A stretch of DNA of 38,103 nt from Lachnospiraceae bacterium. Lineage in GTDB: Bacteria > Bacillota > Clostridia > Lachnospirales > Lachnospiraceae. The stretch covers positions 1 through 38,103 of the forward strand of contig JAFSPF010000115.1 in NCBI GenBank assembly GCA_017443065.1. The letters run 5' to 3'. Both the position numbers and the translations under genes were made by a program. This document shows positions 13,625 through 35,620 of the stretch, piece after piece. The first letter of the stretch is position 1. Each line of letters starts with the position of its first letter. The notes under the pieces were generated by a model that saw nothing but the letters and a program-made list of their open reading frames with translations, was not told the origin of the DNA and did no database searches.

Positions 13625-13653
13625 TTGACCCTTTCCTCAAATAATGGTATGAT
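13625..13653 (+). promoter_or_regulatory. strong sigma-A-type promoter for the DUF5717 operon
   Basis: TTGACC (13625-13630), a 17-base spacer, and TATGAT (13648-13653): five of six matches in each hexamer at the optimal spacing. The predicted start is near 13660. A small 5-bp hairpin, CCGTT/AACGG (13672-13685), lies in the leader. The operon appears to run from here through purA. Confidence 0.8.
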
Positions 13654-13712: not shown

Positions 13713-16700
13713 TTGGAGAAGCACATCGAACGTCTGATCGACGGGCAATTTGAATACGAACGGGGGATGCTGGAGTTTTCCGAGCAGCGGATCGAATGCA
13801 CGCTGCGCCCCGGAGATATGATTGAGGGGAGCTTTACCGTGTTCGGCCCGGAGGACAGGCCGGTGGAGGGATTCGTGTCCTCCACGGAGATCCGCATGGA
13901 GGTTCTCACCCCTTCCTTTTCGGGCGCGCAGGATGTGATCGGCTATCGCTTCCGGGCGGAGGGTCTTTCCTCCGGGGACGTGATCAAGGGAGATTTCCGC
14001 ATCATTTCCAACCGCGGGGAGTATATGCTTCCCTTTGTGGTGACCGTGGAGCTGGAGCATGTCGAATCCACGATGGGCGAAATCCGCAACCTCTTTCATT
14101 TTGCCAATCTCGCAAAAACTGACTGGAACGAGGCGATGAACCTCTTTTACCATGAGGACTTTATTCTGCTGCTCAGCGGCCATGACGCACAGTACCGCAG
14201 CGTTTACAGGGGCCTGAAGGGCGCGCCGCGTTCGGCACAGTCGATGGAAGAGTTTCTGATCGCCATCAAAAAGAAAAAGAGCGTCACCTATCTGCCGGAC
14301 AAGGCGGAGATCCTTCTGGAAAATCCGGATTCCGTCAACGAGGAGACGCTGACCCTTTCCAGAAACGGCTGGGGCTATACGGAGCTGGAGGTTTCCGCGG
14401 ACGGGGATTTCCTGCAGCTCTCAAAGGACCGGATCGATGAAGAGGACTTTATCGGCAACAGCTGCCGCTACCGCTTCCGCATTGATCCCGGGGGACTGCA
14501 TGCGGGCAATAACTTCGGCTCCGTCACATTTTCCAATGCTTATTTTTATCTGCGCGTGCCGGTGACGGTGCGCATGATCGTGACGCCGTCATCGCGGGAA
14601 AACTATCTGCAGATGAAGCGCCTGACCCTGGATCTGATCCGGCTCTATTCCATGTTCCGTCTCAGAAGGATTCCGGCCCAGCGGTGGCTGCAGGAAGCGG
14701 GAGAGATCACCTCCAAAATGCGGGCACTGGATCCGGAGGACCCTGTCCCCGCGCTGTATCAGGCGCATTACCTGATCACGGCAAACCGTGCGGGAGAAGG
14801 CGCGAGGCTTCTTTCCGAGCAGCGCGAGTTTTCCCTGAAAAAGGACGGCTCGGAGGCGGTCTATTGCTACTATCTCTACCTGACCACCCTGCTCGACGTG
14901 ACGGATGAGGAGATTGCGCAGGTGCAGCGGCAGATCCGCAGTGCCTGGTACGGGAATCCGGAGGACTGGCGCATCGCATGGCTCATGCAGTTTGTGTCGG
15001 ATGAATACACGACGAGCGTTTCCGCCAAGTGGGAGCTGTTCAAGGAGCAGTACGCGCGCGGTGCGCGCAGCCGCATCATTTACATCGAGGCGCTGCTGCT
15101 GTGCGCGTCGCATCCCGCGACACTGATGCGGCTGGATGATTTTGAGATTGCGATGCTGCGCATGGCGGTCAGGGAAAAGCTTCTGCCCGCGCAGCTGATC
15201 GAGCGGATCGTTTACCTCGCAAGGGGGAGCAAGCGCTATGACGAGGCCGTATTTCATGCGCTCACCGCCTGCTATGAGATGAAGCCGCAGGATGAGACGC
15301 TGACGGAAATCTGTGCGATGCTGATCAAGGGGGCGCGTACGGATGCGGAAGCGCATGAATGGTATGACAGGGGTGTCCGCGCTTCGCTTCGTCTGACCAG
15401 ACTATACGAGTATTTCATGATGAGTGTCGGGACGGACGAGCAGGGCGCCGCTGCTTCGGAGATTCCGCGCGCCGTGTTAATGTATTTTTCCCACGGCTCC
15501 GATCTGGACTATAAGTCCAATGCCCTGCTGTACCGCTATATCTGCGAACACAGGGATGCCGGCGGGGAGCTGTATGAAATGTATGAGCAGCGGATCCGGG
15601 ATTTCTGCGCAAGACAGATCGCGCAGGGACGGATCGACGAGACACTGGCCTTCCTCTACAGGAAGTTCCTCGACGAGAGCATGGTCACGGCGGAGAATGC
15701 GCATACGGTGCTGCGTGTGCTGCACACCTCCAGGATCCGCGTCGGGCATGAGGGCATCAAGGAGATCGTGCTGATCTATGACAAGCTGCTGCACGAACGC
15801 ACCTATCCCGTGACGAACGGTGTGGCCTATGTGCCGTTGTACGGCGCGGAGTATGTCGTGCTGCTTGCGGACAGGGCCGGCAGGCGTTACGCGGAGGGCA
15901 TTACCTTTGATACGGACAAGCTGATGCTGGCGGGACGGCTGGTGCAGCTGGTCAGTCCCTATATCACGGGAGGGGAGGAATATATTGATCTCTTCCTCTG
16001 CGAGCAGGGCAGCGCATACAACATCAACATGGAAAACGTGGCGGGATACCGGATGCTTTCCGCGTCCAATGTGCTGGACATGGATTGCCGCTCGGAAATC
16101 AGGCAGCATCTGATCCGCTTCTATCATGACAATGATTTTACGAGACAGCTGTCGGAGGCGTTGCAGGAGGAGGATCCGTCTGAGATGAGCGTGCAGCGGC
16201 GCAACGAGGTGCTGGAGCTCATGGTGCTCTTTGACAACGCAGACCGCGCGCTGAAATGGATGAAGCGCTTCGGCACCTACGGCATTGATCCGAAGGTGAT
16301 CATGCGGATGTGCGCAAGGCTGACGGACCGCGAGGCGTATCACGGGGATGAGGCCGTCATCGCCATCATCTTCCATACCTTCCGCAGGGGACGCTATGAC
16401 AATACGGTGCTGGAATTCCTCGTGCGGGAGTTTTCCGGGACCGTGCGGGAGATGCGGGATCTCTGGAAGGCGGCGGTTTCTTTCGGTGTGGATTCCGCGC
16501 CGCTTCTGGAACGCATCATTGACCGGATGCTGTATTCCGGTGCCTATGTCGGGGAGCGGATTGATATTTTCAAGGAATATGTGCAGCAGGGAGCTTCGGG
16601 GGACATTGAGATCGCATTCCTGGCGCAGTGCGCATATGATCATTTTGTCAGGGAATCGGTGACCAACGAATTCATCTACCGCAGAATCGGGAGACTGCTT

Positions 16701-17312
16701 GCGGCGGGAACAAAGTTGCCCGATGTCTGCGGGATGGATTACCTGAAATACTTTGCGGGACGGAGAACAGGAGAATTTGATCTGGAGGTGGCGGAGGAGG
16801 TCCTGAAAAAACTGACCGCCACGAACCGGTACTTCCCCTTCTTTTCCGAGTACACGGACATTCTGCCGAAGGCGGGACGTTTTTCGGAACGTGTCATCCT
16901 GCATTACAGGACGCGCCCGCACCGTCGCGTGACGGCGCATTACATGCTGCACCGGGAAGGCGGGGAGGAATCGGAAAAGGCCTACACGACAAAACGCATG
17001 GTGGAGATGTACGACAGTATTTATGTGCTGTCCTTTATGCTGTTCTTTGGCGAGGAGCTTCAGTACTACATCACGGAATCCTCTGACGCAGAGACGGATG
17101 ACATGCAGGAGGAGCAGCTGACGGAAAGCGGGATGCTTTCCCGCAGCGATATCCGCCATCTGCAGACGGAGGGCGGCCGGTTCTCCGTGATCAATGATCT
17201 CTGTGTGGCGGAGGCCTTAAAGGATTACGAAACCTTTGACCGCCTGATTCAGGAATACGAACATGTCGGCTTTTTGACGGAGCAGCTGTTCCGTATGAGG
17301 GAAGAGACATGA
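13713..17312 (+). CDS. DUF5717 family protein, large, function unknown
   Basis: I recognise this as the DUF5717 type found in Lachnospiraceae; no function is established. The start is TTG at 13713 (MEKHIERLIDG), 7 bases after GGAG at 13702-13705; no better ATG is present. The 1199 residues have no signal peptide or obvious membrane segment. About residues 18-115 and 185-290 look like two beta-sandwich domains (alternating hydrophobic strands). From about 295 to the end it is predominantly helical, with repeated short amphipathic helices like an alpha-solenoid or TPR-type scaffold. Its TGA overlaps the ATG of the Hsp70-like gene, so the two proteins are probably made together. Confidence 0.8.
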   Translation: MEKHIERLIDGQFEYERGMLEFSEQRIECTLRPGDMIEGSFTVFGPEDRPVEGFVSSTEIRMEVLTPSFSGAQDVIGYRFRAEGLSSGDVIKGDFRIISNRGEYMLPFVVTVELEHVESTMGEIRNLFHFANLAKTDWNEAMNLFYHEDFILLLSGHDAQYRSVYRGLKGAPRSAQSMEEFLIAIKKKKSVTYLPDKAEILLENPDSVNEETLTLSRNGWGYTELEVSADGDFLQLSKDRIDEEDFIGNSCRYRFRIDPGGLHAGNNFGSVTFSNAYFYLRVPVTVRMIVTPSSRENYLQMKRLTLDLIRLYSMFRLRRIPAQRWLQEAGEITSKMRALDPEDPVPALYQAHYLITANRAGEGARLLSEQREFSLKKDGSEAVYCYYLYLTTLLDVTDEEIAQVQRQIRSAWYGNPEDWRIAWLMQFVSDEYTTSVSAKWELFKEQYARGARSRIIYIEALLLCASHPATLMRLDDFEIAMLRMAVREKLLPAQLIERIVYLARGSKRYDEAVFHALTACYEMKPQDETLTEICAMLIKGARTDAEAHEWYDRGVRASLRLTRLYEYFMMSVGTDEQGAAASEIPRAVLMYFSHGSDLDYKSNALLYRYICEHRDAGGELYEMYEQRIRDFCARQIAQGRIDETLAFLYRKFLDESMVTAENAHTVLRVLHTSRIRVGHEGIKEIVLIYDKLLHERTYPVTNGVAYVPLYGAEYVVLLADRAGRRYAEGITFDTDKLMLAGRLVQLVSPYITGGEEYIDLFLCEQGSAYNINMENVAGYRMLSASNVLDMDCRSEIRQHLIRFYHDNDFTRQLSEALQEEDPSEMSVQRRNEVLELMVLFDNADRALKWMKRFGTYGIDPKVIMRMCARLTDREAYHGDEAVIAIIFHTFRRGRYDNTVLEFLVREFSGTVREMRDLWKAAVSFGVDSAPLLERIIDRMLYSGAYVGERIDIFKEYVQQGASGDIEIAFLAQCAYDHFVRESVTNEFIYRRIGRLLAAGTKLPDVCGMDYLKYFAGRRTGEFDLEVAEEVLKKLTATNRYFPFFSEYTDILPKAGRFSERVILHYRTRPHRRVTAHYMLHREGGEESEKAYTTKRMVEMYDSIYVLSFMLFFGEELQYYITESSDAETDDMQEEQLTESGMLSRSDIRHLQTEGGRFSVINDLCVAEALKDYETFDRLIQEYEHVGFLTEQLFRMREET

Positions 17313-18613
17313 TGCTCAGAAACGCAAACAGGGCAAAGGGCTATGTGCTCGGTTATGATCTCGGAATGTCCTTTTCCCAGATCAGCTTTATGGAGCTTGG
17401 CGCATCCGTCCCGAAGACGCTGTCCGTCCTGACGGGACGGGAGGTGTATGACATCCCGACCCTCCTCGCGAGACGGGAGGATATCAACCAGTGGTTTTTC
17501 GGGCGCGAGGCCTTAAAGCAGATAGAGGATTCGGGCGCGATCCGCGTGGACCGTCTGATTGAGCTTGCCATGACGGGGACGCCGGTCACCGTCGGTGCGC
17601 AGGAATATGATCCGGTATCCCTGCTTGCGCTGTTTGTGAAACGGTCGCTGTCCCTTCTCTCCATGGAGCTGGATGCGTCGCATATCCGCGCAATGATGTT
17701 CACCACCGCGCAGATGGACGCGCGGATGGTGGAGGTTTTGCGCGGCATCGTCAAGGCGCTGCAGCTGCCGATGAAGCATGTGTTCTTCCAGAGCTATGCG
17801 GAGAGCTTTTACCATTACATGCTCCGGCAGGACAGGGAGCTCTGGCAGCACCAGGTGCTGGCCTGTGATTATCATTACGAGCTGCTGCGCACCTATGTGC
17901 TGCAGTTCAATGCGCATACGACGCCGGTGGTGGCCACCGTGGAGGAGCAGACCTTCACGGACATGGAATTCAACATGGACGGCCTTCCGGAGGATAAGAT
18001 CAACCGGGAAAAGGCCTTGTCCATGCTGGACACCTCCTTTTTCAACACCGTGGAGAGCCTGACGCAGGGCAAGGTGTTCTCGACGGTATACCTTTTGGGC
18101 AACGGCTTCAAGGACAACTGGATGAAGCGCTCGCTCGAATACCTCTGCCGCACGCGCAAGGTGTTCCAGGGCAGCAACCTTTTCAGCAAGGGCGCCACCT
18201 ATGCGGCGGGCGCAAGGCTGCAGAAGGAGGGGGAGAAGACCGGCTTTGTCCTGCTGGATGCGGAGAAGCTGCGCTTTAATCTGGGGATCATGGCGCATGT
18301 CCGCGGGAAGGAACAGTACTGCGGGATTCTGGACGGCGGCTGCAACTGGTATGAGGCCTCCGCCGCGGCGGATGTCATTCTGGAGCACGGGGACAGCTTT
18401 TTTATCCAGGCAACGCCGCTGACCGGCGGCATCGCAAAGTCGCTCGCGTTTTCCCTGCAGGGACTGCCCGAACGCGAGGAGAGGACCACAAGGCTTTCCA
18501 TCGCCATGGAGATGCTTTCCGTGAACCGCCTGAAGGTGACGGTGACGGACCTGGGCTTCGGCGAATACGCGCCGGCCACGGGAACGGTGCTGACCGAGGA
18601 GTATGAGTTATGA
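17309..18613 (+). CDS. divergent Hsp70-like protein (DUF5716-like) with degenerate nucleotide site
   Basis: The 434 residues follow the DnaK layout at low similarity. GYDLGMSFSQISF (residues 14-26) aligns with the phosphate-1 loop. A segment with FFGREALKQ then RLIEL matches the GQPAKRQ...IKRLIG region. MKHVFFQSYAESFYHYM matches the VKRIINEPTAAALAYG helix. The YLLGNGF...SKGATYAAGA stretch matches the adenosine-side loop. RLKVTVTDLGFG near residue 415 matches the end of the substrate-binding beta domain. Where DnaK has its glycine-rich phosphate-2 loop, this protein has LACDYHYELLRTYV, so ATP hydrolysis may be weak or lost. The family is uncharacterised; a chaperone-like or scaffolding role with the DUF5717 protein is my inference. 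Confidence 0.75.
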   Translation: MMLRNANRAKGYVLGYDLGMSFSQISFMELGASVPKTLSVLTGREVYDIPTLLARREDINQWFFGREALKQIEDSGAIRVDRLIELAMTGTPVTVGAQEYDPVSLLALFVKRSLSLLSMELDASHIRAMMFTTAQMDARMVEVLRGIVKALQLPMKHVFFQSYAESFYHYMLRQDRELWQHQVLACDYHYELLRTYVLQFNAHTTPVVATVEEQTFTDMEFNMDGLPEDKINREKALSMLDTSFFNTVESLTQGKVFSTVYLLGNGFKDNWMKRSLEYLCRTRKVFQGSNLFSKGATYAAGARLQKEGEKTGFVLLDAEKLRFNLGIMAHVRGKEQYCGILDGGCNWYEASAAADVILEHGDSFFIQATPLTGGIAKSLAFSLQGLPEREERTTRLSIAMEMLSVNRLKVTVTDLGFGEYAPATGTVLTEEYEL

Positions 18614-19455
18614 CCAATCTGATGCTGTGCACAGGTGCATATGCCGTACATCCCTTTGACTGGGAACAGATCGAGACACGGGTTCACAGCATGGAGGAGC
18701 TGTGCTTTTATATTGTCCGGAACCGCTATCTGCTGACGCGTGACGCCTTCACGCAGGAGCTGTTTGACTGGATCGGGACGGAGTGTGCGCTGCCGGAGCT
18801 TTCGCGTTCCCTGCTGAAACGGTATGGCGCACGCGCCTCCGCGGCGGAGCTGGCGGTGACGATCCTGGAATACGTCCGCTTCAATTCTCCTGAGGAAATC
18901 GCCGAGACGAAGCGCGTGCTGAAGGAAAGCGCGGAGATGGATGTCTATGAAAAGAGCCTTGCGCGTGCGGATTTCCTCATGGAGAACCAGCATTTTCATC
19001 AGGCAATCGATGCCTATGAGGATTTGCGCCGCTCCACGCCGGAGCCGGACGCGGACAAGCATGCCTACCTGCTCTATTGTGAGGGCGTGATGAATGCGCG
19101 CATGTTCCAGTTTGCGCAGGCGGCGGAATGCTTCCGGAGCTCCTACGAGATCACGCGTGATGCGGAGACCTATGTCAATTATCTTGCGGCGCTCAGGATG
19201 CAGATGACAGAGAAGGAATACCTGGATTACATTTCGGATGACCCGAAGGGATACCAGCTGTCCATGACGTTGGAGGAGCGGATCTCGCGCGCGGAGGAGG
19301 AGTACGGACTCAGCGACGGATACCGGAGGATCCGCCATTTAAAGACGCTCAAAAACGAAGGAAAATCAAAAGAGTATTATGAGGCCGTTGCGGGAATTGT
19401 CAGGGAATTAAAGGATGATTACCGAGGCACGAAGGACGTACTGGTCAGGAACTGA
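18610..19455 (+). CDS. TPR-like helical protein of unknown function
   Basis: A soluble, helical protein of 281 residues with no membrane segment. Residues 115-205 contain helix pairs such as ADFLMENQHFHQAIDAYEDL and AQAAECFRSSYEI that look like tetratricopeptide repeats. The N-terminal third (MEELCFYIVRNRYLLTRD) is distinctive for this locus. It overlaps the Hsp70-like gene by 4 bases and is followed 2 bases later by the next gene. TPR proteins often partner Hsp70 proteins, so a co-chaperone or adaptor role is plausible but unproven. Confidence 0.7.
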   Translation: MTNLMLCTGAYAVHPFDWEQIETRVHSMEELCFYIVRNRYLLTRDAFTQELFDWIGTECALPELSRSLLKRYGARASAAELAVTILEYVRFNSPEEIAETKRVLKESAEMDVYEKSLARADFLMENQHFHQAIDAYEDLRRSTPEPDADKHAYLLYCEGVMNARMFQFAQAAECFRSSYEITRDAETYVNYLAALRMQMTEKEYLDYISDDPKGYQLSMTLEERISRAEEEYGLSDGYRRIRHLKTLKNEGKSKEYYEAVAGIVRELKDDYRGTKDVLVRN

Positions 19456-19457
19456 GG

Positions 19458-20720
19458 ATGGCAGGAGCTACGGCACGGAAAAAGAAAAGCGTGCGGCGCG
19501 GCGCACCCGCAGCGGGGAGGGCGGCATCCGCAAGGAACAGGGAGAAGCCTTCCGCCGCGAGGAGCAGGGGGAGGACCGCATCCGCCGGGGACCGGGCTGC
19601 GGCAGCCGCGCAGATACAGTGGCAGGCGGAGGCCGGAGAGGACATGCGGCGGGAAGAGCTGGTCGCAAGCTGTCTTGACCGCATGTACGAGGGCGCAAAG
19701 GAAATCGAAAAGCTGAAGCAGGAGTATGGTTCGGTTACGGGACAGATCCGTGATCTGGACACGGTCCGTGAGATGCCGCCGGAAAAAAAGGCGCTTGTGG
19801 AAAAGAACGCCGGCCGCCTGAAGGAGTTTCTGCGCAGACAGGAGGAGTCCGCAAGGCGCGAGGGCCAGATGAGCGATGACGAGTTCACGCGCATGGAACG
19901 GCTGCAGGACGAATACCCGACAGCGATCGGCAAATTCTCCGACGCGGAGGATTACCACCGGAAGATCAAGAACGATCTGCGCAAGCTGGACAACGAACGG
20001 GAGGCGTATTATCTGCGGGAGGAGGATCTGGAGAAGACCCTCTCCGGCACGCACGATCTGTCCATCATCTGTATGGCGGCACTGTGCGCGGTGCTCGCGG
20101 TGCTCTTTGTCCTGCAGACGGTGTTCCGGCTGAACGTGGTGTACGGCTACATGGCGGCGGTGCTGCTGGCGGCCGTTGCGATCGTGTTTCTTTATACGAG
20201 AAACAGCTCCGCGGCGCGCGAGCTCAAGTCCGTGGAGAACACGATAAACCGTTTGATTTTATTACAAAATACCGTCAAGATTCGTTATGTCAACAACCGC
20301 AACCTCCTGGATTATTACGAGCTGAAATACGGCGTGCAGAAAGCCTCGGAGCTCAAGTCCATGGCGGCGCGTTACGAAAAGGAACGGGATGCCAGACAGC
20401 GGCTGTCGGATACGATGCGTGAAATTGCCCGCACGGAGCAGGACTTACAGCGTCTGTACTATGATGCGGGCGTGCGGGAGCCGCAGCGTCTCGTGAAGAT
20501 GCCGGAGGTGATCCTGAACCCTTCGGACGAAAGCGCCTACCGCAGCGAGCTCTTAAAACGCAGGAAGCAGCTGCGGGGACAGATGGATTACAACCAGGAC
20601 AAGGTGATTGCAAAGGCCAAGGATGAGATCAAACGGATTGTCAAAAAGAACCCGCGTGACGCGGACGCGATTTCGGCACAGGTGGACCGCTTCATGCAGG
20701 AGAAAGGAATCCGGATTTAA
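19458..20720 (+). CDS. coiled-coil protein with two central membrane segments
   Basis: The 420-residue protein begins with a basic, Ala/Arg/Ser-rich low-complexity tail (residues 1-50). A charged helical coiled-coil region follows (about 60-195), then two adjacent hydrophobic helices (about 200-222 and 228-248) and a second coiled-coil region to the end. Both long arms would lie on the same side of the membrane, probably the cytosol. It starts 2 bases after the TPR gene and ends 3 bases before purB. It could anchor the preceding three proteins at the membrane. No known family is recognised. Confidence 0.7.
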   Translation: MAGATARKKKSVRRGAPAAGRAASARNREKPSAARSRGRTASAGDRAAAAAQIQWQAEAGEDMRREELVASCLDRMYEGAKEIEKLKQEYGSVTGQIRDLDTVREMPPEKKALVEKNAGRLKEFLRRQEESARREGQMSDDEFTRMERLQDEYPTAIGKFSDAEDYHRKIKNDLRKLDNEREAYYLREEDLEKTLSGTHDLSIICMAALCAVLAVLFVLQTVFRLNVVYGYMAAVLLAAVAIVFLYTRNSSAARELKSVENTINRLILLQNTVKIRYVNNRNLLDYYELKYGVQKASELKSMAARYEKERDARQRLSDTMREIARTEQDLQRLYYDAGVREPQRLVKMPEVILNPSDESAYRSELLKRRKQLRGQMDYNQDKVIAKAKDEIKRIVKKNPRDADAISAQVDRFMQEKGIRI

Positions 20721-20723
20721 ACG

Positions 20724-22157
20724 ATGACAAAGGACAGATACGAATCCCCGCTGTCCGGGCGGTATGCGGGGAAGGAGATGCAGCTCATTTTCTCGCCCGA
20801 AAAGAAATTCCGCACCTGGCGCAGACTCTGGATTGCGCTCGCGGAGGCGGAGCAGGAGCTCGGTCTGGACATCACGGACGAACAGATCGAAGAGCTGAAG
20901 GCCCATGCGGATAACATTAATTTCGAAGAGGCGGCGGAGCGGGAAAAGCAGGTGCGTCATGATGTGATGGCGCATGTCTATGCCTACGGCTTACAGTGCC
21001 CGAAGGCAAAGGGCATCATCCACCTCGGCGCGACCAGCTGCTATGTCGGGGACAATACGGACGTCATCCTGATGCGCGAGGCGCTGACGCTTGTGCGCGG
21101 GAAGCTCCTGCGTGTCATCCGCGCGCTGTCCGCCTTTGCGGACCGTTATAAGGATCTGCCGACGCTCGGCTTCACGCACTTTCAGCCGGCCCAGCCGGTG
21201 ACCGTGGGAAAGCGCGCATCGCTCTGGCTGCAGGATTTCATGGCGGACCTGGAGGATCTGGATTATGTCCGCGCGCATCTGAAGCTTTTGGGCTCCAAGG
21301 GGACCACGGGCACGCAGGCCTCCTTCCTGGAGCTTTTTGACGGCGATACGGAAAAGGTAAAGCGTCTGGATCCGTTGATCGCGGAGAAGATGGGATTTTC
21401 CGGCTGTGTGGCTGTCTCCGGGCAGACCTATTCGAGGAAGCTGGATCTCAGGGTGATGAACGTGCTGGGCGGGATCGCGGTCAGCGCATCGAAGATGGCG
21501 ACGGATATCCGCCTGCTGCAGCATCTGAAGGAGGTGGAGGAGCCCTTCGAGAAAGAGCAGATCGGTTCTTCCGCCATGGCCTATAAGCGCAACCCCATGC
21601 GCTCGGAACGGATCTGTGCGCTGGCGCGCTTTGTCATCGCGGACACGCTGAACCCGGCGCTCACGGCTTCCGCGCAATGGATGGAGCGGACGCTGGATGA
21701 TTCCGCCAATAAGCGGCTGTCGGTGCCGGAGGCCTTTCTGGCCACGGACGGGATTTTAAACCTTGTGGCAAACGTCACGGACGGCCTTGTGGTCTATGAA
21801 AAAATGATCACGAAGCATCTGATGCAGGAGCTGCCCTTCATGGCGACGGAGAACATTCTGATGGATGCGGTGAAGGCCGGCGGTGACAGACAACAGCTTC
21901 ATGAAAAGATCCGGCAGCATGCCATGGAGGCGGGAAAAAGAGTCAAGGAAGAGGGAAAAGACAACGATCTCCTGGAACGGATCGCGGCGGATCCCGCCTT
22001 TCCGCAGGACGCGGATGAGTTACAGGCACTGACGGATCCGAAGCGCTATACCGGGATGTGTGCGGAGCAGGTGACGGTGTATCTGAGGGAGACGGTGAGG
22101 CCGCTTCTGGAAAAAGAAGCATCCGCGATCGGGGAAGCGGAAGCAATCACCGTATAG
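20724..22157 (+). CDS. purB: adenylosuccinate lyase
   Basis: Cleaves adenylosuccinate to AMP and fumarate, and SAICAR to AICAR, in purine synthesis. The 477-residue length fits the longer adenylosuccinate lyase clade. The fumarase/aspartase superfamily signature [12 protein letters not shown] is present near residue 288. [10 protein letters not shown] and [14 protein letters not shown] carry other active-site regions. It lies 3 bases after the coiled-coil membrane protein gene and is followed directly by purA, so AMP-branch enzymes are co-expressed with the uncharacterised four-gene set. Confidence 0.95.
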
Positions 22158-23863: not shown

Positions 23864-23935
23864 GCACCCGTAGTCTAATGGATAGAACGAAGGCCTCCGA
23901 CGCCTTTAATGCAGGTTCGATTCCTGTCGGGTGTA
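23864..23935 (+). tRNA. tRNA-Arg, anticodon CCG
   Basis: A cloverleaf can be folded: acceptor GCACCCG with CGGGTGT (G1-U72 wobble), anticodon stem AAGGC/GCCTT with loop CTCCGAC, giving anticodon CCG (reads CGG, Arg), and T stem GCAGG/CCTGT with loop TTCGATT. The discriminator is A. CCA is not encoded. The D stem GTCT/GAAC has a C-A mismatch at 23875-23886, which is unusual. The position in the gene run and the following terminator support a real gene. Confidence 0.9.
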
Positions 23936-23949
23936 CGAAAACGGCGGAG

Positions 23950-23993
23950 GCGCACAGGGCTTCATGCGGGCATGAACGGCTCTGTGCGCTTTT
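23950..23993 (+). terminator. terminator after tRNA-Arg
   Basis: The outer stem GCGCACAG (23950-23957) pairs with CTGTGCGC (23982-23989) and the inner stem TTCATG pairs with CATGAA (23961-23976), followed by TTTT (23990-23993). The short T-run suggests moderate efficiency. The next coding start is only 24 bases downstream. Confidence 0.7.
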
Positions 23994-24016
23994 GCGAGGG
24001 AGAGAATCCGGAGAAT

Positions 24017-26615
<2,599 letters not shown>

Positions 26616-33751: not shown

Positions 33752-35620
33752 ATGATCGTCTACGACGGGAAGAAGACGGATTTTCTCCGCAGCATCGAGG
33801 CTGATTCCATTGTCGATGAAATAGAGCAGAGTATTCTGGAGAAGATGGGGCGTCACACAGCAAAGAGCGAAATCCGTTCCTGGGAAAACTCTTTGAAGGA
33901 AATGTATGTCGTCATGAACGATCCGGAGATTCCCGACGGGGCCGGTGTGGCGATCGAGTACAACATCCCGCAAACCTCCAAACGCGTTGATTTTATGGTT
34001 TCCGGCTTCGATGCACAGAACCGGCCGGGCGTGATTATCATTGAATTGAAGCAATGGGAAGAGCTGACAGCGGTCGAAGGAATGGATGCCCTTGTGGAGA
34101 CGTTTATCCATCAGGGCAGACACCGTCTGGTGCATCCTTCCTATCAGGCATGGTCGTATGCACAGCTGATTCGTGATTACAATCAGACGGCGCAGGAGGA
34201 AAACATCGGATTGTTCCCCTGCGCTTTTTTGCATAACTACAAAAGGAAAGAGCAGAATGATCCCGTGGATGCGGAACAGTATCGGGAGTATTACGAGGAT
34301 GCGCCGGTTTTCACGAAGGGTCAGCGGGAGCAACTGCGTGCGTTTATCAAAACCGCGGTATGCCGTGAAGATCACAGCGATCTGCTGTACAGGATAGATC
34401 ACGGAAAAATCCGTCCCTCCAAGAGCCTGCAAAATACGATTGCCTCTATGCTGAAGGGCAATCGTGAGTTTATCATGATTGATGAACAGAAGAGGGTGTA
34501 TGAGGAGATTCTGGATGCCTCCAGGAGATGCCAGAAGGATTTGAGAAAACGGACGGTTATAGTACAGGGCGGCCCCGGAACCGGCAAGACGGTGGTGGCC
34601 ATGAATCTTTTGTCCGAACTGACCGGACAGGAGCAACTGGTGCAGTATGTCACAAAGAACAGCGCACCGCGCGATGTGTTCAAACTGAAACTGAAGGGAA
34701 ACCACAGGAAGAGCGTCATTGACAACATGTTCAAAAGCTCCGGTAACTATGTCGGCGCGCCGGATAATGCCGTGGGGACGCTGTTGGTGGATGAGGCGCA
34801 TCGGCTGAACATGAAATCCGGGATGTTTCATAACATGGGAGACAACCAGACGCGGGAGATCATCCATGCCGCACTTTGCTCCGTCTTTTTCATCGACGAA
34901 TCGCAGCGTGTGACGATGGACGATGCGGGTTCCATCGATGAAATCTATCGCAGTGCGGCGGTGGAGAATTCAGAAGTGATTCCGATGGAATTGCAGTCGC
35001 AGTTCCGTTGTAACGGTTCCGACGGATATCTTGCATGGCTTGACCATGTGTTGCAGATCCGGGAGACGGCCAACTTCGATCTGGAGGGATATGATTACGA
35101 CTTTCGTGTCTTTGATACCCCGAAGGAAGTATATGATCTGATTCTTGAAAAAAACAGCCTCACAAACCGTGCGCGCATGGTAGCAGGGTATTGCTGGGAA
35201 TGGCCGAAGGACAAACGGAATGATACGAATTACCATGATATCGTTATCGGCGATTTTGCAATGAGTTGGAATCTAAGTGAGGGGGAGCCCTTTGCCGTGA
35301 GTGAGACCTCCGTGCATGAAATCGGCTGTATCCATACGGCACAGGGACTGGAATTTGACTATGTGGGCGTGATCATCGGACAGGACATGCGATACGAAGA
35401 CGGTCAGGTCATCACGGATTTTCATATGCGTGCAAAGACAGATAATTCGCTGAAGGGCATCAAAGCACTGGAGAAGACCGATCCGGAGGCAGCGTACCGG
35501 CGGGCGGACGAACTGATTAAGAATACCTACCGCACCCTGATGACGCGCGGGATGAAGGGTTGTTACGTGTACTGCACGGATGCCGCGCTGCGAAAGTATC
35601 TGCTGGGACGTTCGTCCTAA
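33752..35620 (+). CDS. PD-(D/E)xK nuclease-DUF2075 helicase fusion
   Basis: The 622-residue protein has an N-terminal nuclease-like domain (Asp80 in RVDFMV, Glu98 and Lys100 in IIIELKQW) joined to a DUF2075 superfamily 1-type helicase. Helicase motifs are Walker A GGPGTGKTVV near 272, Walker B LLVDEAHRL near 345, FFIDESQRV near 380, QSQFRCNGSDGYLAWL, HTAQGLEFDYVGV near 530 and TRGMKGCYVYC near 601. Proteins of this design often act in phage defence or DNA/RNA processing; that role is inferred. It follows Fic by 67 bases, and a small CACCT/AGGTG hairpin lies in the gap. Its stop overlaps the convergent minus-strand gene by 4 bases. Confidence 0.85.
   Translation: MIVYDGKKTDFLRSIEADSIVDEIEQSILEKMGRHTAKSEIRSWENSLKEMYVVMNDPEIPDGAGVAIEYNIPQTSKRVDFMVSGFDAQNRPGVIIIELKQWEELTAVEGMDALVETFIHQGRHRLVHPSYQAWSYAQLIRDYNQTAQEENIGLFPCAFLHNYKRKEQNDPVDAEQYREYYEDAPVFTKGQREQLRAFIKTAVCREDHSDLLYRIDHGKIRPSKSLQNTIASMLKGNREFIMIDEQKRVYEEILDASRRCQKDLRKRTVIVQGGPGTGKTVVAMNLLSELTGQEQLVQYVTKNSAPRDVFKLKLKGNHRKSVIDNMFKSSGNYVGAPDNAVGTLLVDEAHRLNMKSGMFHNMGDNQTREIIHAALCSVFFIDESQRVTMDDAGSIDEIYRSAAVENSEVIPMELQSQFRCNGSDGYLAWLDHVLQIRETANFDLEGYDYDFRVFDTPKEVYDLILEKNSLTNRARMVAGYCWEWPKDKRNDTNYHDIVIGDFAMSWNLSEGEPFAVSETSVHEIGCIHTAQGLEFDYVGVIIGQDMRYEDGQVITDFHMRAKTDNSLKGIKALEKTDPEAAYRRADELIKNTYRTLMTRGMKGCYVYCTDAALRKYLLGRSS

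Follow-up and report, generated by a model that had tools for sequence, protein, structure and literature searches.

A stretch of 38,103 nucleotides from a Lachnospiraceae bacterium (contig JAFSPF010000115.1; hereafter the window) carries four closely spaced genes, g1 to g4, which the initial annotation held to be probably made together and to suggest a membrane-attached chaperone or assembly complex. The four open reading frames (ORFs) had been placed at 13713-20720 as overlapping or abutting, and their coordinates proved exact throughout, with 4-base overlaps at both the g1/g2 and g2/g3 junctions and a 2-base gap between g3 and g4. The features of the locus are listed here:

13713..17312, + strand: g1, TTG start, 1199 amino acids; Pfam DUF5717_N and DUF5717; a large scaffold-like protein
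17309..18613, + strand: g2, 434 amino acids; a DUF5716 protein and Hsp70 relative without key ATPase residues, with a shortened nucleotide-binding domain (NBD), a substrate-binding beta domain (SBD-beta) and no lid
18610..19455, + strand: g3, 281 amino acids; a TPR protein, joined to g2 in five relatives
19458..20720, + strand: g4, 420 amino acids; coiled-coil-like, with two membrane helices; accessory
20724..22157, + strand: purB (adenylosuccinate lyase), which starts 3 bases past g4 and lies outside the system
13625..13653, + strand: promoter-like site TTGACC-N17-TATGAT with a TG extension

Pfam places g1 in DUF5717_N (PF18984; 2.8e-290) and DUF5717 (PF18983; 1.9e-83) and g2 in DUF5716_C (PF18980; 9e-96) as full members. 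These entries are families of unknown function, to which the present analysis adds descent from Hsp70, loss of a working active site and a larger operon. The g2 of the window has no direct Pfam match to the Hsp70 family PF00012, the TPR matches of g3 are all weak, and Pfam assigns no family to g4 and detects no J-domain or GrpE protein among the four; NCBIfam names none of them above its family cut-offs. A g1 profile found no match in the PDB at E 1, and comparison of g1 and of its N-terminal part with solved structures gave nothing convincing. Hydrophobicity windows locate two hydrophobic helices at about residues 195-250 of g4, followed by a conserved motif after the second helix; in g1 to g3, no 19-residue window of the scan rises above 1.6.

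Descent and ATPase residues of g2

The relatives of g2 that are informative for its ancestry lie in other families of the order, in a larger operon of eight genes with the order aN, aC, H1, GE, H2, H3, HV, TP, to which a ninth is occasionally added:

aN: DUF5717-N protein
aC: DUF5717 solenoid-like protein
H1 and H3: Hsp70s
H2: DUF5716 Hsp70
GE: protein of mostly 500-650 amino acids with a GrpE domain at its end
HV: Hsp70 fused to vWA
TP: TPR protein
CC: g4 homologue and ninth gene, found only in loci L035, L040 (= L119), L107, L108, L109 and L120

In most of these operons g1 has its counterpart in two separate proteins, aN and aC, and the scaffold, DUF5716 and TPR homologues follow a common order in the larger operons and in the reduced, Lachnospiraceae-type form.

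A mixed g2/H2 profile matches DnaK structures with an E value of 7.2e-20 over query positions 15-409, running from the NBD into SBD-beta, and the H2 protein of L040 matches PF00012 at 1.9e-16. A profile built from Lachnospiraceae g2 proteins only matches the profile of H3, a plain Hsp70, with a probability of 99.6% (E 1.8e-24, 407 columns). By these comparisons, g2 can be assigned to the Hsp70 (DnaK) superfamily by descent, with homology over the NBD and SBD-beta.

The ATPase site was read by alignment to the genome's own DnaK in distinct, length-filtered proteins, with residues named by E. coli numbering. Both phosphate-1 threonines, Lys70, Glu171, the phosphate-2 Asp and glycine, Thr199 and Asp201 are present in every H1 (48/48), H3 (48/48) and HV (38/38) protein. 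By contrast, Lys70, Glu171 and Thr199 occur together in 0/66 H2 and 0/65 g2 proteins. Taken singly, Lys70 is likewise found in neither set (0/66 and 0/65), Glu171 in 12/66 H2 and 0/65 g2, Thr199 in 0/66 and 1/65, and Asp201 in 0/66 and 2/65; the phosphate-2 Asp is retained in 66/66 H2 and 39/65 g2 proteins.

The g2 proteins are also shortened. The median distance from the phosphate-2 to the adenosine motif is 63 residues in g2 (range 51-70, n=65), as against 137 in H2, 138 in H3 and 136 in DnaK. Because this stretch measures 63 rather than the 137 residues of H2, subdomain IIB is strongly shortened in g2, with about half of its stretch gone. Complete absence of IIB was considered and rejected, since some of its residues remain in 64/65 proteins, that is, in all but one. 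At the other end, all 65 g2 proteins stop 14-34 residues past the last SBD-beta motif, D-x-G-[FLY]-G, so that the C-terminal helical lid is absent. What persists in g2 is the adenosine-side glycine (65/65), an NLxSKGA-like stretch and the end of SBD-beta, D-x-GFGE. With key ATPase residues missing and the IIB stretch cut to about half, a working ATP-driven chaperone cycle is unlikely for g2. The Hsp70-like protein of the initial annotation is thus borne out in its ancestry, but not as an ATP-driven chaperone.

Gene order, distribution and the larger operon

The unit is nearly universal in its family. DUF5717_N was found in 147 of 150 Lachnospiraceae genomes, sampled at one per genus, and DUF5716_C in 36/37 genomes of the window's genus, its own included. 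Two of the family genomes without g1 (G089 and G151, both >90% complete) are missing g2 too; the third (G080, 67% complete) has g2. Across the order, 97/196 genomes carry DUF5717_N, 28 of them from the window's family and 69 spread over 12 other families. Across the class the count is 8/196: seven belong to the window's own family, and the last is a weak partial match in G311 below the cut-off. A g4 match anywhere in the genome was obtained in 65/150 family genomes; g4 was not found in the other 85, at least 82 of which keep g1. Carriers of the reduced form include Kineothrix, Anaerocolumna, Acetatifactor and many entries titled 'Lachnospiraceae bacterium'; in Kineothrix alysoides (L171) g1 to g4 are all present. 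A typical Lachnospiraceae four-gene locus, L195, also occurs in a record titled Muribaculum (Bacteroidota), probably as a mis-binned contig. Spread by phages or viruses was dropped as an explanation, one scan of viral contigs having confirmed no relative.

Gene order was compared over 157 mapped loci, of which 145 have non-identical g2/H2 and 71 of these are of the reduced type. The reduced type is defined by the presence of g1 and the absence of H1, so only the absences of GE, H3 and HV are independent; none of these genes, nor H1, occurs in any of the 71 loci. In all 71, g1 is followed by g2, and in 70 also by g3, the remaining locus ending at a contig edge. The complete order g1-g2-g3-g4 is seen in 40 loci and g1-g2-g3 in 22, some of them cut by contig ends. 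Four loci have a g2+g3 fusion plus g4 (one with g1 in two pieces) and one has the fusion without g4; two have g1 in two pieces with g2-g3-g4, one has g1-g2-g3 and a further downstream TPR gene, and one is contig-cut after g2. In total g4 is adjacent in 46/71, and the median gaps between successive genes are 15, 4 and 7 bases. The conservation of gene order across Lachnospiraceae, which the initial annotation gave as a check, was therefore recovered, and its TPR adaptor is tied to g2 by the natural fusions. These come from five genomes in two genera (four are species of the window's genus, and the fifth, G103, belongs to another) and contain both halves; the g2 half of G103 is the most divergent of the five.

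For the larger operon, 73 loci or pieces of loci were collected, L197 having been taken out of an initial 74 as a reduced locus that is cut; many are broken off at contig ends or have inserted genes. An uninterrupted aC-H1-GE-H2-H3-HV-TP series is present in 21/73; in L035, HV and TP each lie in two frames. Carriers include metagenome-assembled genomes (MAGs) of Candidatus Epulonipiscium and of Defluviitaleaceae, as well as Defluviitalea phaphyphila Alg1, which has no CC. Of the 38 distinct HV proteins, 26 fit a strict pattern for the vWA metal site, and 56/61 GE proteins of more than 480 amino acids fit a GrpE-end pattern. Beyond the order, the GrpE fusion has matches in 20/292 class genomes, only through its C-terminal GrpE part and in ORFs of 170-246 amino acids that resemble ordinary GrpE. 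In several MAGs, mostly under Defluviitaleaceae or Clostridiales titles (L103 (= L164), L116, L129, L159 and L165), additional ORFs of about 110-530 amino acids interrupt the series of subunits. In one genome (G040) the set is distributed over three contigs, L043, L046 and L112, as aN-aC-H1 (contig end), GE-H2 and TP-HV-H3.

This operon resembles the DnaK/Hsp70 and GrpE system in having three Hsp70s with complete motifs and a protein with a GrpE-like C terminus, and its H2 and the corresponding g2 are homologous to the NBD and SBD-beta of DnaK. It differs in its extra scaffold, its Hsp70-vWA fusion and the size of its GrpE fusion; in the single larger operon scanned by Pfam, no J-domain protein was found. 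The g2 protein differs in being without key ATPase residues, much of IIB and the lid.

To examine the direction of change, a subsample of 70 rows was placed in a maximum-likelihood tree, which is drawn with a midpoint root and contains several long branches. The tree unites the 27 reduced rows in a single clade (100/99); the sister of this clade, row L035, has the larger operon (99/97), and an H3 outgroup attaches among larger-operon rows. An H3 orthologue was found in none of 100 family genomes, the window's included: the best match, at 199 bits, is DnaK-like, and six genomes have no match at 1e-30. All eight larger-operon genomes used as positive controls score 903-1076 bits. The four-gene unit therefore appears to descend, in stripped-down form, from an Hsp70/GrpE/vWA operon of eight or nine genes. 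In Lachnospiraceae the GrpE fusion and the three Hsp70s whose ATPase motifs are complete were lost, apparently in a single event, and the scaffold, the dead Hsp70 and the TPR protein stayed. The reverse, growth of the four-gene form into the larger operon, was rejected on the single clade of reduced rows and its larger-operon sister. A second case comes from family f16, where G051, a 96% complete draft, has a locus of aN-aC-H2 only, and the genome's sole Hsp70 match at 1e-20 is DnaK-like; G416 and G434, of the same family, kept the larger operon. Because G051 is separately reduced, the active Hsp70s were probably lost at least twice independently, with the scaffold and dead Hsp70 retained each time.

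Promoter region and neighbouring genes

The near-consensus promoter of the initial annotation was upheld in part. The site is present upstream of g1, and in the 200 bp that precede g1, sites with a score of 10/12 or better are enriched in the reduced-type loci (26/68, versus 21/340 mononucleotide shuffles). However, the whole promoter scan returned 6 sites against 4.2 expected, so that judged by its letters the site at 13625-13653 is a weak candidate. The five same-genus relatives with listed scores reach only 7-8 of 12, and conservation inside the window's own genus is therefore not clear. Regulation through the CIRCE heat-shock element was tried and dropped: in 114 upstream regions mismatch counts were no better than in shuffles, in a scan for which short DnaK pieces gave no element either and so supplied no positive control.

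Downstream of g4, Pfam identifies purB and then purA; the neighbouring purB is possibly co-transcribed with g1-g4. Genes flanking the loci, checked by Pfam in representatives, include purB, valS, aminotransferase and transport genes and differ between loci; no division gene was among the few neighbours so checked. Upstream of g1 or aN, 41 loci (22 reduced and 19 larger-operon, duplicate copies included) have a class I/II aminotransferase gene, which runs on the opposite strand in 37 cases (for example, L059:651-1745 and L101:1360-2505; two members were checked by Pfam); it is absent upstream in the window. Elsewhere in the window, positions 23909-25243 encode a 444-amino-acid protein after purA with a bacterial SH3 domain at its C terminus, and positions 33752-35620 encode a 622-amino-acid protein with a Schlafen group 3 DNA/RNA helicase domain (PF09848, 1.6e-98), a possible defence-related gene.

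Function of the proposed complex

We propose that g1-g4 form one operon for one complex, consisting of a scaffold, a dead Hsp70, a TPR adaptor and, in some lineages, a membrane coiled-coil protein. In this complex g2 would not cycle ATP and would retain SBD-beta as a peptide- or protein-binding module; g3 would dock directly on g2, g1 would assemble several g2-g3 units, and g4, where present, would tether these to the membrane's inner face. The whole would be no foldase but a static platform that serves some house-keeping client by holding, as an adaptor or in assembly. What the sequences show is a fixed unit, a direct g2-g3 link in the fusions, loss of catalytic residues, retained SBD-beta homology and an optional membrane protein; the four roles (client or peptide binding without ATP cycling, docking, scaffolding and tethering) are inferred. 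To the full reading, a non-ATPase holding or adaptor complex descended from the larger operon, we give a probability of about 0.5; within it, descent and the dead ATPase are much firmer than the holding or adaptor function.

Several observations weigh against this reading. The Lachnospiraceae-only g2 profile is weak against DnaK in the PDB (E 0.04), so the Hsp70 link depends on sister-family intermediates. The loss of catalytic residues is incomplete, as the phosphate-2 Asp (66/66 H2 and 39/65 g2), Glu171 (12/66 H2) and Thr199 (1/65 g2) show, and g2 may still bind nucleotide or another ligand, because its adenosine-side glycine and NLxSKGA-like stretch are conserved. That SBD-beta binds peptides is an assumption drawn from its descent, and the surrounding genes point to no client. 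Membrane tethering, moreover, cannot be general, because g4 was not found in 85/150 genomes; of the membrane-attached complex first suggested, the two hydrophobic helices of g4 stand, and its generality, with g4 in only 65/150 family genomes, does not.

Other functions were weighed against the same evidence. The reduced complex could still be a chaperone that borrows the housekeeping DnaK-GrpE, with dead g2 as a nucleotide-exchange or recruitment partner of DnaK, in the manner of eukaryotic Hsp110 with Hsp70. TPR proteins frequently bind Hsp70s, the ancestral dead Hsp70 adjoined active Hsp70s and a GrpE fusion, and in the window's genome DnaK is the only Hsp70-sized PF00012 match, the two others lying in frames of 335 and 341 amino acids that we judge by length to be MreB. 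Hsp110/Grp170 and other divergent Hsp70s offer a precedent for a divergent Hsp70 that serves as a partner and not a foldase. However, Hsp110 binds ATP and relies on an intact NBD, which g2 does not have, and Hsp110- and GrpE-type exchange acts via subdomain IIB, the lobe of which g2 has lost about half of its stretch. With no J-domain or GrpE protein among g1-g4 and no CIRCE element upstream (in the scan that had no positive control), we regard this account as unlikely. An envelope or division platform, with g4 as the means by which some cytoskeletal or cell-wall process is organised at the membrane, would accord with the two membrane helices and conserved following motif of g4 and with a four-gene unit nearly universal in one family. 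It is rather harder to reconcile with the at least 82 genomes that have g1 and in which g4 was not found, and with identified neighbours of the purine, valS, aminotransferase, transport and similar kinds, and is accordingly doubtful.

No description of the DUF5717/DUF5716 unit or of its Hsp70/GrpE/vWA/TPR operon was found in the open-licence PMC literature, where the title of the single DUF5716 paper (PMC8115291) is unrelated. The closest system in print is that of the GAP1-N2 GTPases (Kaur et al. 2020, PMC7159879), in which a GTPase core and effectors are accompanied by HSP70, GrpE and TPR/DnaJ. Shared with the present loci are Hsp70 and GrpE in one operon, a partner of the TPR kind, a further Hsp70 that is incomplete and, in related themes, vWA. 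They differ in that their incomplete Hsp70 is an ATPase domain only, whereas the g2 kind keeps the substrate domain, and in that the present loci are syntenic across the order and, in Pfam scans of one larger operon and ten window neighbours, show neither a GTPase/GAP1 component nor tubulin or effector parts; no GTPase profile was run on the other loci. That the unit is a system of defence or conflict akin to these, as the shared Hsp70, GrpE, Hsp70-only and TPR or DnaJ parts suggest (PMC7159879), is very improbable and was dropped, as the scanned genes hold no GTPase, tubulin or effector, PADLOC gave only weak matches to TPR and Hsp70 stretches, the viral-contig scan confirmed no relative, and the unit is near-universal and syntenic, unlike patchy defence genes.

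A bolder reading can be put forward tentatively. With the active Hsp70s and their exchange factor discarded family-wide, and a loss of this kind at least twice independently, the core rather than the ATPases would carry the essential job: the pseudo-chaperone would be the sole Hsp70 of an engine-less machine, and scaffold and pseudo-Hsp70 together would act as a constitutive peptide-binding organiser. If true, no bacterial chaperone system described so far would resemble it.

The Lachnospiraceae rank with the commonest bacteria of the gut, and nearly all of them have this operon, whose first two proteins have been filed solely as domains of unknown function. The comparison with the larger operon frames two questions, namely what the client of the dead Hsp70 is and what the relatives gain from three active Hsp70s, a GrpE fusion and a vWA domain. 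A core that does work without an ATPase would be a clear bacterial case of a pseudo-chaperone that has outlived its own engine.

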